Shown one piece after another: positions 45,112 to 53,701 of a DNA stretch of 64,000 nt (position 1 is its first letter; every line of letters begins with the position of its first letter). Below the pieces are notes generated by a model. The model was not told the DNA's origin. It worked only from the letters and a program-made list of their open reading frames with translations, and ran no database searches. The stretch is from Halorubrum sp. 48-1-W (GTDB lineage Archaea > Halobacteriota > Halobacteria > Halobacteriales > Haloferacaceae), in contig NZ_QMIM01000015.1 in NCBI RefSeq assembly GCF_003287355.1, forward strand, positions 1-64,000, in the 5' to 3' direction. The position numbers and the translations under genes are program-made.

Positions 45112-45357
45112 TCACTCCGGAACCGTCGCCCGAACGGTCTCGTCGCCGGTGATCGTCACGAAACACCCGGCCATCCGGAAGGAGACGGACAGGTCGACGT
45201 CGTCGGATCCCCACGCCCGATCGACGAGTCGTGACAGGGACTCGACGTCTACGATGTCCTGTAGCCGGTCGTCGATCGCGCTCGGGTCGACGTCCCGTTC
45301 GTCGGCTATGGTCGTGACGATCCGCCAGCAGATGTCGTCGACTGTGTTCGGGTCCAT
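45112..45357 (-). CDS. stand-alone HalOD1 domain protein
   Basis: An 81-residue protein with the HalOD1 pattern: ICWRIVTTIADERDVDPSAIDDRLQDIVDVESLSRLVDRA forms the helical part with the L-x-D-x-VDVESL core, and VDLSVSFRMAGCFVTITGDETV the hairpin. Convergent with the epimerase paralog, 13 bases away, and followed upstream by a 134-base gap to the Bat-like gene. Output-domain function is predicted only. Confidence 0.78.
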   Translation of the reverse strand: MDPNTVDDICWRIVTTIADERDVDPSAIDDRLQDIVDVESLSRLVDRAWGSDDVDLSVSFRMAGCFVTITGDETVRATVPE

Positions 45358-45491: not shown

Positions 45492-47999
45492 TTACTCCGT
45501 CGAGTCGATCCCACCGAACACGTCCGAGAAGAGCTTTCGCTCGCTCGTTCGGAGGTGTCTGTTGAACGTCGGCTGTGTGATCCCCATCGCCTCGGCGACC
45601 TCCTCGCCCGTGCTCGTCCGGGGCCACTCGAAGTACCCGGCCAGGTAGGCGGTCCGTACCGCCTCGAACTGTCTGTCGGTGAGCCGATCAGCGGCGGTCG
45701 TCGGTCCGAACGACCGCCCGCCGGTCGTCTCCGTGTCCCGACGCGAGAGCAGTTCGACCGCGCCGTACCGGTCGTCGAGCGCCTCCACGAACGACCTGAC
45801 GCTTTCGGATCGCGGGAGCGTTACCGTGGCGTCGATACCGGTCGACGTCGCCACGAGGGAGTCGACGTTCGCCCCGTGGGCCGCCAACCGATCGGCCACG
45901 GTCGGACCGGTGACCGAGAGCTCCGTCCGACGCGTCGCCCCGTCGTCGATCCGACGAGCCGATTCGACGGCATGGACCGTCGAGGCCGCCGGCTCGAGGT
46001 CGACGTCGGCGCTGGCGTACACCAACGATCGGTCGCCCCCCTGCGGCACCGTCCCGTCGATCCGGATCGGTTCCCCGACCGCGTCGGCGATACGGACGAG
46101 GAGGGCGTCCGGAGCGTCGACGCGTATCTCGAGTTCGACGAACGACTCGCTTCGAAGCGAGCGCCGCGTTTCGATGCTGTCGATCGCGTCGGCGATCGTG
46201 TTCCCGAGCTCCACGAGCAGCTCGCCGAACTCCCCGTCGAAGGTCCCCACCCGGTCGGCGTACAGCGTGAGCACCCCGTAGTCGAGGTCCTCGTACGACA
46301 GCGGGACCGCGATGATCGACCGGAATCCGCACACGAGCGCGTGCTCCCGCCACCCGGCCTCGCGGAGCCGCTTCGAGACGTCGGTCACGACGACGGTCTC
46401 GCCGGTATCGAGCGCGCGACGGGTGGGGTCGTTTCTGAACGCGGACCGATCGGTCGGGGGGGCGGTGCTCCCGAACGCGAGCGTGTCGAGGTACGTCCCG
46501 CCGTCGCCCGCGTCGGAGACGAGGTCGAGACCGCCGCCGGTGAGATACGTCTCGCCGAACCAGGCGAACCGGACCGGGTCCGCGTCGACCAACAGCGCAC
46601 AGACGGCGTCGCCCACCTCCTGGAGGGTGCGGGCGTCGACGAGGGCTGCGTTCACGCGACGGATCAGGTCGTTGAGTTCGTGGAGCTGTTCGAGGGTCCG
46701 GTTCCGTTCGGTCAGGGCCTCGCTCTGCTGAGACAGCTCCGTCTCGCGGGCGACGCGTCCGAGCGCCGCGACCGCGTTGGCCGCCACCAGCTCCACCGAC
46801 TCCTCGACGTTTTTCGCGTCCTTCCCCTCCGGGATCTCGGCGTAGAGGAGTCCGTACTCGTCGAGCGTCGCGTACAACGTTCGGACCGTCGACCCCCCCG
46901 TCCCCTCGGACCGTTCGACGACGCGCCCGCTCGGGTGGGTTTCGTCGTGGACGTCCGGCCGTGTGGGCGAAGGCCCGTCCGCGGGGACCGTCACGCCGTC
47001 CTCCCCGGTCAGGAACTCCTCCCACACGGTGCTTCCGGGCCCGCGGGGTCCCGGGAGTTCCCCGGACGCGACGACCGGGTCGAGGACGGATTCCACCGCG
47101 TCGAACGAGTAGGAAACGACGGTCGCGTCCGGCCACACCGTCGTGGTGACGTCGAGGATCGTCTCGTGGACGGCCCGTTCCGTGTCCGCTCGGAGGAATC
47201 GGCGGGCCGACCGGTTCAGCTCGCGGAGGGCCCGGTCGCTCCGGCGCCGGTCGGTCAGGTCCCGTATCACGCCGACGCGCTCTTTTCGGCCGTTCGCGAA
47301 CGCCACCGTCGAGAACTGCGTCTCGATCGGGAGTTGGTCGCCGTCCGCCGTCCGGATCGCGGACTCGATCACGCCGACGTCCGCGCCGTCCGCACGCAGT
47401 TGGCCGATGATCTCGTCCGCCATTTCGATCGTTTCGGACCCCGCGAGCATGGACGCGTGTGACCCGACGAGCTCCTCGCGGTCGTAGCCGGTTATCGTCG
47501 TGACCGCGTCGTTCACCGTCGTGATGACGAACGCCTCGTCGAGTGTGTATACGCCGTCGTCGAGCGTTTCGAGGATACGGCTCGACCGTCGGAGTTCGCG
47601 CCGCATCTCGACGCGCTCGCCGACGTCCCGCAGCGTCAGCAGGACGACGTCCCCGACCGGGACGACACGGATCTCGAACGCTTCCTTCCGGTCGAGGGCC
47701 GTCTCGAACGCCACGAGTTCGTCCGTTCGAAACGACTTCTCGACGGCTGTATCGATGTCGACACCCACCGAACCCGCGAGCCGGCTCACCTCGTGTCTAC
47801 CCGGTTCCTCGTCGAGTTCGAGCAGATCGACGGCGGTCCGGTTCCAGGCGGTCACGGTCGAGGTGTCGTCTACGACGAGGAGTCCGGTGGACGACTCATC
47901 GAAGAGTTCGGCGATCCGACGGAACGCATTCCCCGCGGGTTCGAAACCGCCCGCAGAGTCTCCCTCCGCAGATGCGTCGTTAGACACATCGTATAACAC
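45492..47999 (-). CDS. Bat-like PAS/GAF sensor-regulator with HTH_10 domain
   Basis: An 835-residue cytoplasmic sensor of the bacterio-opsin activator type. Start is GTG at 47999; a second GTG four codons in is possible. PAS 1 covers about 28-130 (SSTGLLVVDDTSTVTAWNR), PAS 2 about 140-255 (VYTLDEAFVITTVNDAVTTI), then a GAF-like region about 270-440, a second GAF about 455-600 (VRFAWFGETYL, FRSIIAVPLSYEDLDYGVLTLYAD), a Bat-coupling beta domain about 615-765, and the HTH_10 at 773-835 (LTDRQFEAVRTAYLAGYFEW, TGEEVAEAMGITQPTFNRHL). Bat in Halobacterium controls opsin and carotenoid genes. Here it is divergent from a terpenoid-synthase-like gene across 245 AT-rich bases. Confidence 0.88.
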   Translation of the reverse strand: MLYDVSNDASAEGDSAGGFEPAGNAFRRIAELFDESSTGLLVVDDTSTVTAWNRTAVDLLELDEEPGRHEVSRLAGSVGVDIDTAVEKSFRTDELVAFETALDRKEAFEIRVVPVGDVVLLTLRDVGERVEMRRELRRSSRILETLDDGVYTLDEAFVITTVNDAVTTITGYDREELVGSHASMLAGSETIEMADEIIGQLRADGADVGVIESAIRTADGDQLPIETQFSTVAFANGRKERVGVIRDLTDRRRSDRALRELNRSARRFLRADTERAVHETILDVTTTVWPDATVVSYSFDAVESVLDPVVASGELPGPRGPGSTVWEEFLTGEDGVTVPADGPSPTRPDVHDETHPSGRVVERSEGTGGSTVRTLYATLDEYGLLYAEIPEGKDAKNVEESVELVAANAVAALGRVARETELSQQSEALTERNRTLEQLHELNDLIRRVNAALVDARTLQEVGDAVCALLVDADPVRFAWFGETYLTGGGLDLVSDAGDGGTYLDTLAFGSTAPPTDRSAFRNDPTRRALDTGETVVVTDVSKRLREAGWREHALVCGFRSIIAVPLSYEDLDYGVLTLYADRVGTFDGEFGELLVELGNTIADAIDSIETRRSLRSESFVELEIRVDAPDALLVRIADAVGEPIRIDGTVPQGGDRSLVYASADVDLEPAASTVHAVESARRIDDGATRRTELSVTGPTVADRLAAHGANVDSLVATSTGIDATVTLPRSESVRSFVEALDDRYGAVELLSRRDTETTGGRSFGPTTAADRLTDRQFEAVRTAYLAGYFEWPRTSTGEEVAEAMGITQPTFNRHLRTSERKLFSDVFGGIDSTE

Positions 48000-48244
48000 A
48001 CCGTAGTACTGATAAATACCTTCGTATATTCAAAATATTATATGTCGAATTGACAGAAGAGGGTCGCTCGGGAGTGATACATCATAGATATAGTATGGTT
48101 ATACGAAAATACCTGTATTAAGCCTTGATACGGAGTTTTATACTATCTATTACGTTCATGTTATCTTACTAGAATCTTTGTGAAAGTCACGTATTCTTAC
48201 TTTAATTAGTGTCTTATACACAGAACAAAACAATTAAGTCAGTT
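48000..48244. promoter_or_regulatory. strongly AT-rich divergent promoter region
   Basis: This 245-base region is by far the most A/T-rich of the window. It separates the Bat-like gene (minus) from the terpenoid-synthase-like gene (plus). tttaatt at 48201-48207 lies 38 bases before the ATG at 48245 and is the best plus-strand TATA. On the other side gtataacaca abuts the GTG of the Bat-like gene, and aaaatattatat at 48033-48044 could serve the minus strand. The size leaves room for several regulator sites. Confidence 0.55.
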
Positions 48245-49321
48245 ATGGATGTGTTAACTAGTATGGTACACGAGGGTCAGGGAAACGTCGCGGCACGCGT
48301 GTCGAACGGGACGTGGAGTCGGGACGGATACAGGCGCAGCATCGACGAGATCGACCTTCCACCGACGGTACGGACCTACGCGAGCCGATACGATCGGGTT
48401 CTCGGCGAACGGGACGTGTTTCTCTGGAAGTGGATCCATAACCTCTTCGACGAGTTCACGCTCTCGTCGGTCGACGACGACGCGAGGGACGGGCTCTACG
48501 AGTCCAAGACCCTCCTGACGATATACGTCACCGTGCTCGACGACCTCGCGGAGGTGAGCGACGAACGGGCGACCTTCGAGGTCGGACGGCGTCTCCCGTT
48601 TCGCGCGAGGGCGGGTGCGGAGGGTACGGTGCGGTCCGACGGGGACCGCGAGACCACGGACGCCGATGCCGGCACGACACGATCCGACGTCGATCACGAC
48701 GTGATCGACTTCCTCGCCGACCTCTGGAACGAGATCGAGACGTCGATCGAGGACGGCCCACGGTACGACGAGTTCGTGGACGTCTTCGAGTACGACTTCC
48801 GTCAGACCTGTAACGCGATGGAGTACTCCCGACTCTTAAACCACAACGTGTCGATGGCGAACCGAACCGAGGCCGAACGGTACGACGCCTACAACATGAC
48901 GGTGTTCCCCTACGCGTGTCTGGATCTCATGTACTCCCCGTCGTTCGACCGCGAGGAGTTCGGCGTGCTCCGGAGCCTGCTGTGTGAGATCCAACAGATG
49001 GCCCGGATCGGCAACTGGATCACGACGTGGGAACGGGAGCTCGCGGAGGGGGACGTCAGTTCGGGCGTCGTCGTCTGCGCGCTTCGCCGTGGCGTGATCT
49101 CGCCGGACGAACTGGAGGACGCCGACGACCGGACCGTCGACCAGCTGGTCGACCGGATCGAATCGAACGGGATCGAATCCGAGTTCATTCGGGAGTGGGA
49201 TATCCGGAACCGAACCGTTCGGAAGCGCGCAGTCGAGATCCGTAGCGTCGACGGGGAGGCCGTCGTCGATGGCATCCGCACGGTGATGAACCACCACCTC
49301 GCGAGCGAGGGGAACAAGTGA
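48245..49321 (+). CDS. candidate class I terpenoid synthase-fold protein
   Basis: A 358-residue acidic helical protein; ATG 48245 is chosen for its distance to the TATA-like box, though an upstream GTG (48209) or ATG 48263 could also serve. LLTIYVTVLDDLAEVSDERATF carries DDLAE at residues 99-103, fitting the first Asp-rich motif (DDxxD/E). NWITTWERE at 257-265 fits the NSE/DTE second metal motif N-x3-S/T-x3-E. The 158-residue spacing includes a low-complexity acidic insert at 120-150; without it the spacing is near that of bacterial terpene synthases. Arg212 lies 45 residues before Asn257, near the expected diphosphate sensor. No C-terminal RY pair is evident. If active it would cyclise or ionise an isoprenyl diphosphate. 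Divergent from a Bat-like regulator. Confidence 0.6.
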   Translation: MDVLTSMVHEGQGNVAARVSNGTWSRDGYRRSIDEIDLPPTVRTYASRYDRVLGERDVFLWKWIHNLFDEFTLSSVDDDARDGLYESKTLLTIYVTVLDDLAEVSDERATFEVGRRLPFRARAGAEGTVRSDGDRETTDADAGTTRSDVDHDVIDFLADLWNEIETSIEDGPRYDEFVDVFEYDFRQTCNAMEYSRLLNHNVSMANRTEAERYDAYNMTVFPYACLDLMYSPSFDREEFGVLRSLLCEIQQMARIGNWITTWERELAEGDVSSGVVVCALRRGVISPDELEDADDRTVDQLVDRIESNGIESEFIREWDIRNRTVRKRAVEIRSVDGEAVVDGIRTVMNHHLASEGNK

Positions 49322-49406: not shown

Positions 49407-49700
49407 CTAGATCGGACCGGTGACGACGACGCCGCCGTCCCCGAAGACGGCGACCCGACACCCCTCGAAAGAGAACGTGACCTCGACGTTCGTTCCACCG
49501 GTCTCGATGAGCCGTTCGAGCGCGTCGGTGTCGACGACGTCGTACAGCGGATCGAGCCGTGTCGGTTCCGTGCCGATCACCGCCGAGACGGCCTCGACTA
49601 TCGCGACACAGACGGAGGCGTCCTCCGCGCTTTCGAATACCGTCGTGTAACCGCTTGATCGCTCCGATTGCCGTTCCGTGTCCCCTGATGTCTGCCCCAT
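49407..49700 (-). CDS. stand-alone HalOD1 domain protein
   Basis: A 97-residue protein. After a Ser/Thr/Glu-rich lead of about 25 residues, ASVCVAIVEAVSAVIGTEPTRLDPLYDVVDTDALERLI matches the HalOD1 helical core (L-x-P-L-x-x-VDTDAL) and NVEVTFSFEGCRVAVFGDGGVVV the hairpin. Convergent with the terpenoid-synthase-like gene, 85 bases away. An A/T-rich block (49735-49770) lies upstream of its ATG. Confidence 0.8.
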   Translation of the reverse strand: MGQTSGDTERQSERSSGYTTVFESAEDASVCVAIVEAVSAVIGTEPTRLDPLYDVVDTDALERLIETGGTNVEVTFSFEGCRVAVFGDGGVVVTGPI

Positions 49701-51739: not shown

Positions 51740-52546
51740 TCACTCCGGGTGGGGATCGTGTCTCGGGAGCAAACCCTGTGCGAGCAGACGCCGGGAGATC
51801 ACGACGAGACCATTGCGGAACCCGCCGCCGAAGATAGCCTGCTCCTCGCGAGTGTCGGGGACGATCGTACTGACGAGGATCGAGGACCGGTCGACGAGGA
51901 GGAGCCGACCGATGGCCAGGTTGTCGGACACGTCTCCCGCGTTGCGCAACCACTCCAGTCCGGACACGAACGTCGTCGCGTTCGGGATGACCCCGTTGAT
52001 ACGTGACTCGAGCGACTCGCTAACGGCACCAACGAGCAGGTCGACCCCGGGATCGAGGGCGTTCAGGCTCTCGATCAACTCGTCCGTCAGCAGTGAGTCG
52101 TCGCCCAGGACCAACACGACCTCCTCCGTCGCGTCGTCGATCAGCTGAATCGCCCGGTTCGCGATCGCGGCCGTTCCGGACATCGACCAGACCTCCTGGA
52201 CCTGGTCCGCCTCCTTCGATTCGACCGGTTCGGTTCGATCGAGGGCCCGATGGAGGCGCGCAACGCGGTCCTCGTACTGGTCGCGAAGCGTTTCGGTGGC
52301 CTCCTCGATCGCGACGGCCCGAAACCGCTGGGGGCTCGAGTGCTGGATCTCGACGAGCCCCTGGGCTTCCAACACCCGGATCGCGTCGTAGATACGCGTC
52401 CGGGGGACGTCCGTGATCTCGCTCAGCTGTTTCGCCGTCCCCGACTCGACGCGTGACAGTCCGACGAAACACTTCGCCTCGTACTCCTTCAAGCCGAGGT
52501 GCTGAAGGACTTCGATCGCTTCGTTTGCTGTATCATCAGTGCTCAT
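51740..52546 (-). CDS. TrmB-family transcriptional regulator
   Basis: A 268-residue regulator; the ATG at 52544-52546 gives MSTDDTANEAIEVLQHLGLK (a TTG three codons earlier is less likely). Residues 10-75 are the TrmB winged helix: LGLKEYEAKCFVGLSRVESGTAKQLSEITDVPRTRIYDAIRVL. A coiled-coil dimerisation helix follows (EDRVARLHRALDRTEP), then a C-terminal effector domain with a phospholipase-D-like look (AIQLIDDATEEVVLVLGDDSLLTDELI). It lacks the sugar-binding domain of classical TrmB. Divergent from a second, similar TrmB gene at 52916. Confidence 0.85.
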   Translation of the reverse strand: MSTDDTANEAIEVLQHLGLKEYEAKCFVGLSRVESGTAKQLSEITDVPRTRIYDAIRVLEAQGLVEIQHSSPQRFRAVAIEEATETLRDQYEDRVARLHRALDRTEPVESKEADQVQEVWSMSGTAAIANRAIQLIDDATEEVVLVLGDDSLLTDELIESLNALDPGVDLLVGAVSESLESRINGVIPNATTFVSGLEWLRNAGDVSDNLAIGRLLLVDRSSILVSTIVPDTREEQAIFGGGFRNGLVVISRRLLAQGLLPRHDPHPE

Positions 52547-52915
52547 GTGTCCCAACTCGCAACCCGGAGACTCCGGATCGTTTCGCCTATCGTACCGCCG
52601 GCCAAATAGGCGTTGTCACTGACTCCGGGACCGACTTACCGGAGACGTCCCACGTGACACGGTCTCCCGCCGTGTTCTATCCTGTAGAGACGTACTGTTA
52701 CGATTCAGGTCACAACTACAAAAACGTTCGCGAGCCGTCATCGATCGCTCCGATCCGACTTTTCACCCGGTTAATCACAAAACTATTATAGCTATCAACG
52801 TCGTACTCGCACTCCCGGTACGCGCCTCGGTACTTGTGTCCCAACCACAACCCGATGCGTGCCGGGCCTGGTCACACTTCGTGGCCGGGTTTCCGCAGTA
52901 CGGCGTCACGATACC
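52547..52915. promoter_or_regulatory. 369-base divergent region between two TrmB genes with a repeated motif
   Basis: Two related sequences lie near its ends in the same orientation: tgtgtcccaactcgcaaccc at 52546-52565 (overlapping the minus-strand start) and tgtgtcccaaccacaaccc at 52835-52853, about 60 bases before the plus-strand ATG. The centre is A/T-rich (ctacaaaaacgttcg at 52716-52730 and aactattatagctatcaac at 52780-52798), the likely promoter elements. No gene seen. Confidence 0.5.
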
Positions 52916-53701
52916 ATGAACACGGGATCCTTCGATACCCCTCGATCCGCAGCCGTCGAGCAACTCGAGCAGTTCGGCCTCAGTGCGTACGCTGCCCGGA
53001 CGTTCGTCGCGCTCGTGAGTCTCGAGGCGGGCACGGCAAAGGACGTGAGCGAGGTCTCGGACGTCCCCCGGACGCGGGTCTACGACGCGATCGACGAACT
53101 CCACGGGAGGGGGTTGGTCGACGTCCGGCACTCCTCTCCCAAGGAGTTCTGGGCGATATCGGCGGAGACCGCCTCCCGGAAGTTCGAACGGGAGATGTCT
53201 CACCGGGTGTCGGTCCTGACGACCGCACTGGACGATATCGAACCGACACGTCGAACCGAGGAACAGCGCGGCGTCTGGACCGTGGACGAGAGGGAGGCAG
53301 TTACCGACCGCGTGACCGAGATCATCGGCGACGCGGACGACGAGATAGTCTACATGACCGTCGAGGAACTGCTCGACGAGGACGTCATCGACGCGCTCCG
53401 TTCCGCTGTGGACCGCGGCGTGCGGATCCGGCTGGGCGGCGTCTCATCCGACGTGCGAGACCGGATCCGCGAGGAGGTTCCCGAGGCGGAGACGTTCGAC
53501 TCGATCTGGCTCTGGTCGGACACGCCCGCGGGCCGACTGATGATGGTCGACGAGACGCGCGCGCTCGTGAGCGTCCTCGTCGACGACGAGGACGCGGACC
53601 CGACCGATCTGCCATCGGAGACGGCGATCTGGGGGTCGGGCGAGACGAACAGCCTCGTCGTCGTCCTGAAAGCGATCTTCGCGTGGCAACTGGAGCGATG
53701 A
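52916..53701 (+). CDS. TrmB-family transcriptional regulator
   Basis: A 261-residue paralog of the 51740 product. The ATG at 52916 gives MNTGSFDTPRSAAVEQLEQF; the upstream frame is not TrmB-like. FGLSAYAARTFVALVSLEAGTAKDVSEVSDVPRTRVYDAIDEL is the winged helix, a coiled coil follows, then an effector domain containing EIIGDADDEIVYMTVEELL and GVRIRLGGVSS. The two proteins share the DVPRTR(I/V)YDAI recognition helix, so they may compete for the same operator. Confidence 0.85.
   Translation: MNTGSFDTPRSAAVEQLEQFGLSAYAARTFVALVSLEAGTAKDVSEVSDVPRTRVYDAIDELHGRGLVDVRHSSPKEFWAISAETASRKFEREMSHRVSVLTTALDDIEPTRRTEEQRGVWTVDEREAVTDRVTEIIGDADDEIVYMTVEELLDEDVIDALRSAVDRGVRIRLGGVSSDVRDRIREEVPEAETFDSIWLWSDTPAGRLMMVDETRALVSVLVDDEDADPTDLPSETAIWGSGETNSLVVVLKAIFAWQLER

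Follow-up and report, generated by a model that had tools for sequence, protein, structure and literature searches.

The window analysed here, a stretch of 64,000 nucleotides from Halorubrum sp. 48-1-W, holds a gene of a real and widespread terpene-synthase-like family, adjacent to a gene for a regulator of the bacterio-opsin activator (Bat) type. Conserved motifs, a predicted class I terpene synthase fold, a conserved partnership with the regulator and a conserved upstream element were all found. The gene product is probably an enzyme of the class I terpene synthase type that depends on Mg2+ and comes from a family found mainly in archaea; it would be served by a dedicated Bat-like regulator, and the best reading of the sequences and of the structural model would be that of a sensor-coupled terpenoid-forming enzyme. 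No description of an archaeal class I terpene synthase, or of this family, was found in the literature; subscription journals and preprints were outside the scope of the search, and a published account is possible. A 2023 survey confidently tied only halocin and bacterioruberin to archaeal gene clusters (PMC10105419), and archaeal cell-cell signals are largely unexplored (PMC10223598). The family is encoded by roughly one in three of the haloarchaeal genomes sampled. It opens the question whether archaea form terpenes other than carotenoids and lipids to a direct test, and our data suggest regulated terpenoids in microbes not known for making terpenes via such enzymes.

The features of the locus, in window positions, are the following.

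45112 to 45357, minus strand: small protein of 81 aa that clusters locally with HalOD1 proteins, just beyond the Bat-like gene
45492 to 47999, minus strand: Bat-like regulator of 835 aa, recognised by its Pfam domains and by its co-occurrence and adjacency with the synthase
48180 to 48190, no strand assigned: palindrome GTGAAAGTCAC, candidate operator, carrying the conserved element RTGA-N3-TCAC
48223 to 48237, plus strand: GAACAAAACAATTAA, candidate BRE/TATA region of a putative promoter, 26-40 bases upstream of Met7
48263 to 49321, plus strand: terpene-synthase-like gene, coding for 352 aa when started at the conserved Met7 (358 aa if read from 48245)
48539 to 48553, plus strand: Asp-rich motif DDLAE, residues 99-103 of the synthase-like protein
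49013 to 49039, plus strand: NSE-type motif NWITTWERE, residues 257-265 of the same protein
49407 to 49700, minus strand: HalOD1 output-domain protein of 97 aa, convergent, just downstream of the synthase (PF18545, E 7.5e-22)

The sequence-only reading of this DNA had reported a 358-residue frame at 48245 with both motifs and, across a 245-base AT-rich gap, a divergent gene for a PAS/GAF/HTH_10 protein of the Bat type; all of these are present as described. Translation likely starts, judging from the alignment, at Met7 (ATG at 48263) rather than at 48245: this position is Met in 70 of 75 aligned homologs, and the codons 5' of it overlap conserved promoter-like DNA. The 81-aa protein belongs to a local protein cluster (cluster 2) represented at 15 loci, and such proteins recur at homologous loci. 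HalOD1-named proteins also adjoin synthase homologs in plasmid records, and the six plasmid records that hold the synthase family itself all list it as 'hypothetical protein'. Downstream of the locus, two divergent TrmB-family regulators lie back to back (51740-52555 and 52859-53701; PF01978, E about 1e-18 each) and fall into one local protein cluster.

Both motifs were conserved among the 75 aligned homologs, which reach down to about 30% identity. In the Asp-rich motif, [DN]Dxx[DE], D99 was found in 71 homologs, with Asn in the other four, while D100 and an acidic residue at position 103 were invariant. The NSE/DTE-type triad, N-x3-T-x3-E, was equally strict: N257, R264 and E265 were present in all 75 proteins and T261 in 74, the remaining one having Ser. 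The combined pattern, spacing included, matched 75/75 family members and 1 of 554 other proteins of at least 250 aa from the same loci, and this motif pair is far above chance. An unusual trait of the family is that Trp, not Asp, follows the Asn of the triad. R56, W63, R243, R254 and W258 were invariant as well, and most members end in an HLASxGxK-like sequence, the RY pair of bacterial enzymes being absent. Arg212, formerly proposed as diphosphate sensor, does lie 45 residues before Asn257 and is shared by the window protein with its close orthologs; it was found in only 31/75 homologs, and therefore is not a family-wide sensor.

Profile searches addressed a relationship to Terpene_syn_C_2. 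The window protein matched this Pfam family (PF19086) with an E-value of 0.0011, but its 19.2 bits stay below the gathering cut-off of 23.7. Taken alone this would be slender evidence, and the decision comes from the family as a whole. Among 21 family members scanned against Pfam, Terpene_syn_C_2 was matched by 18 (best E 3e-7) and Terpene_synth_C by five, and polyprenyl_synt was not among the families matched. Sequence searches of the PDB with the protein and with a family profile gave no relative, and an NCBIfam search with the protein gave a chance match only.

An AlphaFold model was built from 14 sequences (pLDDT 80.8, pTM 0.81). Its best Foldseek match was geosmin synthase, the top rows being class I terpene synthases. 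VIA-align placed biformene synthase at Z 21.3 (rmsd 3.0 over 268 residues), with many other terpene synthases at Z about 20, and its best 50 entries were terpene synthases and terpene-cyclase-type prenyltransferases. The sequence-only reading had proposed to abandon the assignment if the predicted fold differed from the alpha-helical class I terpenoid synthase fold, or if the Asp-rich and NSE positions varied among homologs. The model has this very fold and the 75-homolog alignment shows both sets of positions conserved, so the assignment is upheld on both grounds.

The structure matches also bear on two other enzyme types. Foldseek also listed FPP synthases, at comparable TM-scores, as would be expected of a polyprenyl-diphosphate synthase or of a phytoene/squalene-synthase-like enzyme. 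Such an activity is nevertheless highly improbable: an NxxxTxxRE motif takes the place of the second Asp-rich motif, and neither the Pfam matches nor the best 50 of the finer structure alignments point towards these enzymes. The second type is a prenyltransferase that would place the prenyl moiety on an amine, an indole or another acceptor, in the manner of the N-prenyltransferases DabA and KabA. DabA (Z 20.3) and DsKabA (Z 19.7) were indeed among the structure matches, and the family copies of Halorussus lie near a tryptophanase gene. However, cyclases score as well or better in the structure alignment, the tryptophanase link is limited to Halorussus-type loci, and neither an acceptor nor a domoate- or kainate-like pathway has any evidence in its favour, which makes prenyl transfer an unlikely function.

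The predicted alpha-helical fold is shared with the bacterial class I terpene synthases of PF19086, such as pentalenene, 7-epi-alpha-eudesmol and linalool synthases. Bacterial records were fetched with a pentalenene synthase query that served only for finding real records. Alignment of the two groups with hhalign was weak (E 0.0035, probability 9%), yet both motifs, DDxx[DE] and N-x3-[ST]-x3-E, came out in register, and a basic residue before the last Glu is common to both. The two groups also differ. The window family has NW instead of ND, lacks a conserved sensor Arg, and has invariant R56, W63, R243 and R254. Its Arg212 was not paired in the profile alignment with the bacterial sensor Arg, situated some 46 residues ahead of the NSE triad. 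The RY pair (R314-Y315) was invariant in the 12 bacterial-type synthases fetched, whereas the window family has HLASxGxK-type ends.

In a maximum-likelihood tree that set 36 members of the family against 12 bacterial-type enzymes, a small bacterial sample with a midpoint root, a long and fully supported branch (100/100) separated the family as a clade of its own. Two haloarchaeal plasmid enzymes, from Actinarchaeum halophilum and Halocatena marina, fell on the bacterial side; archaea therefore have terpene-synthase homologs of two kinds or more. These two share superfamily and host class with the window family but differ from it by strong PF19086 matches (E 1e-46 to 1e-47) and by an SRPBCC-type fusion, with a polyprenyl synthetase gene following directly. 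Their genes (L140:3494-4885 and L141:3467-4906) are annotated as 'hypothetical protein' and 'SRPBCC family protein'.

Of 391 Halobacteria genomes sampled, 120 have homologs of the synthase, spread over 39 of 86 genera; homologs also occur in further families of the same phylum with low G+C, which their G+C and sequences suggest to be methanogens. The family also occurred in three of 96 genomes of a small-genome bacterial phylum, a count in which mis-binning of single contigs is possible. For one of these loci, L015, an archaeal origin was suspected and then dropped, as the 16S rRNA of its genome scores best as bacterial; hence the family is not strictly archaeal. That genome (G703, 0.7 Mb) is likely a CPR-like bacterium; it groups with genomes of mostly 0.5-1.4 Mb, and its title as a Lysobacteraceae MAG looks wrong. 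The PF19086 profile had no match in this small-genome phylum because the model is too distant from the family. Two variants of gene content were noticed. At L090:7326-9708, two synthase-like genes (354 and 346 aa) stand in tandem on one strand, possibly by recent duplication. The homolog at L123:7998-8768 has degenerate metal motifs, with no DDxxD and with SWLSSWSD replacing NxxxTxxxE; it adjoins a methyltransferase and a radical SAM gene and may be a pseudogene or have an altered function.

The partner gene encodes a Bat-type regulator in its full architecture: a PAS domain at residues 140-247 with a weaker N-terminal PAS, GAF at 456-607, BAT at 619-758 and a C-terminal HTH_10 at 773-824 (Pfam: BAT, E 3e-31; HTH_10, E 2e-19; GAF_2 and PAS also matched). 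Among the 52 genomes of the genus, 10 have an ortholog with at least 50% identity. These are exactly the 10 that hold the synthase, and the two genes are adjacent in every one of them; the remaining genomes have only Bat paralogs of about 31-36% identity. Beyond the genus, the synthase-adjacent Bat was the genome-best match in five of five genomes from other genera, in two families. Pairs were arranged divergently in 18 cases, with Bat downstream in two and with Bat upstream on the same strand in three, which indicates that the partnership survives rearrangement. The pairing pointed out by the sequence-only reading is thus real and conserved, within the genus and beyond.

Bat of Halobacterium controls opsin and carotenoid genes. 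The window protein shares the PAS-GAF-BAT-HTH_10 architecture of the Bat regulators and differs in having a terpene-synthase-like gene as partner and in lacking the LOV photoactive cysteine motif GxNCRxL; its only two cysteines, 467 and 557, are both in the GAF domain. Light control, part of the earlier proposal, was considered and dropped for want of the LOV motif, and no evidence was found for the redox regulation of the synthase suggested along with it. In the intergenic DNA of the core clade, the element RTGA-N3-TCAC precedes the conserved start by 83-85 bases, being present at 8 of the 11 closest loci (shuffled sequence would give 0.06 hits over 17 loci), and GAACAAAA stands at -40/-41 in 7/17 loci (0.09 expected), although the loci are related and these counts overstate independence. 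The Bat-like protein may act at the RTGA-N3-TCAC palindrome as its operator, and the synthase transcript would start at 48263 and is probably leaderless, the position of GAACAAAACAATTAA being in agreement with this.

Catalysis by the proposed sensor-coupled synthase can be outlined from the motifs and the model. DDLAE and NWITTWERE would bind a prenyl substrate by its diphosphate, together with three Mg2+; the substrate would be ionised at this site, and the alpha-helical pocket would convert the resulting cation to a terpene or terpene alcohol. Since archaeal lipids are built on GGPP, the substrate of the haloarchaeal enzyme would probably be GGPP, and possibly FPP; two polyprenyl synthetases are encoded elsewhere in the Halorubrum sp. 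48-1-W genome. The conserved basic residues R243, R254, R264 and K358 may take over from the sensor Arg and the RY pair that the family lacks. The Bat-like protein would respond to a redox cue, to a small molecule or to what the synthase makes, and would control transcription of the synthase from the shared intergenic region, probably at the leaderless promoter. Against a synthase stand the sub-cut-off Pfam score, the lack of a sequence relative in the PDB, the weak profile alignment with bacterial synthases, the Trp after the Asn of the triad, the absence of a conserved sensor Arg or RY pair, and haloarchaeal surroundings free of adjacent tailoring enzymes and prenyl synthases. An actinobacterial enzyme lacking the sensor still forms hedycaryol from FPP in low yield (PMC10509563), and a missing sensor need not mean inactivity.

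Neighbouring genes were compared with background genes four positions away, using Fisher tests that leave kinship uncorrected and genes called by a simple script. PAS domains were found in 25 of 134 immediate haloarchaeal neighbours as against at most one of 130 background genes, and BAT/HTH_10 in 19 as against 3. FilR1-type regulators accounted for nine immediate neighbours and were outside the 25 most frequent background families. The usual clusters of tailoring enzymes were mostly absent, and in haloarchaea neither tailoring enzymes nor a prenyl synthase adjoined the synthase. The recurrent neighbours of the window family are sensors or regulators, whereas those of bacterial class I synthases are P450s. 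Given these surroundings, the specialised isoprenoid product that had been proposed stays conjectural. A gene near the Halobellus limi copy, named 'prenyltransferase/squalene oxidase repeat', was considered as a class II cyclase partner and discarded, Pfam favouring a glycoside-hydrolase-like barrel.

Other lineages have sensors of their own. In one group of putative methanogens, the synthase is preceded at all seven loci by a homologous PAS-HisKA_2 kinase gene of like orientation (the domains were verified for five, and two were assigned by homology, one of these with a shortened frame), and at L117 and L118 a PAS-HisKA kinase follows the synthase. The three bacterial loci read methyltransferase - synthase - 7TM kinase pieces - polyprenyl synthetase (L015), polyprenyl synthetase - UPF0047 - synthase - 7TM kinase (L186) and methyltransferase - unknown - 7TM-GAF kinase - synthase - two GAF kinases (L187). 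The polyprenyl synthetase beside the synthase in the first two supports a prenyl-diphosphate substrate. No adjacent sensor was found at L119, L120, L121 and L131, or in a haloarchaeal group whose neighbouring genes encode cystathionine synthase and metallo-beta-lactamase.

That the coupling recurs in separate lineages suggests terpenoids under regulation, which may serve as signals; the neighbouring sensors support regulation of the synthase in all lineages and permit a signal-receptor reading. The latter is a special case of the sensor-coupled synthase that names the sensed ligand: a diffusible or membrane-soluble terpenoid would be received by the neighbouring sensor, the two forming an autoinducer-like pair. 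The unrelated architectures of the conserved sensors (Bat-like, PAS-HisKA_2, PAS-HisKA, 7TM/GAF), the excess of PAS domains and the 7TM/GAF histidine kinases of the three bacterial loci, joined by a polyprenyl synthetase in two, all speak for it, but adjacent regulators are also expected if they merely control the enzyme, and several branches have no sensor at hand. We regard the pair as possible, though less likely than not; a system of chemical communication or self-sensing by terpenoids, in which each lineage has its own type of receptor and some add a prenyl-diphosphate synthase and a methyltransferase, is likewise conceivable though doubtful.

The constant association with signalling genes, together with the loss of sensor Arg and RY pair, could also be explained by a catalytically dead terpene synthase fold that senses prenyl diphosphates and acts on the adjacent regulator. 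We consider this rather unlikely, given that all metal ligands are kept with a strictness that a binding-only role would not demand, that a polyprenyl synthetase shares the operon at two bacterial loci, and that the hedycaryol-forming enzyme is active at low yield. Two further gene arrangements are worth recording. At L100:8961-10589, a gene for a protoglobin-MCP (HemAT-like) oxygen sensor directly follows a more distant synthase-like gene. On two Halorussus plasmids (L147:2734-5927 and L150:2832-5939), a tryptophanase gene is divergent to an operon of DUF7344, synthase-like and HTH genes; indole beside a terpenoid might represent two possible signals, or an indole-terpenoid.
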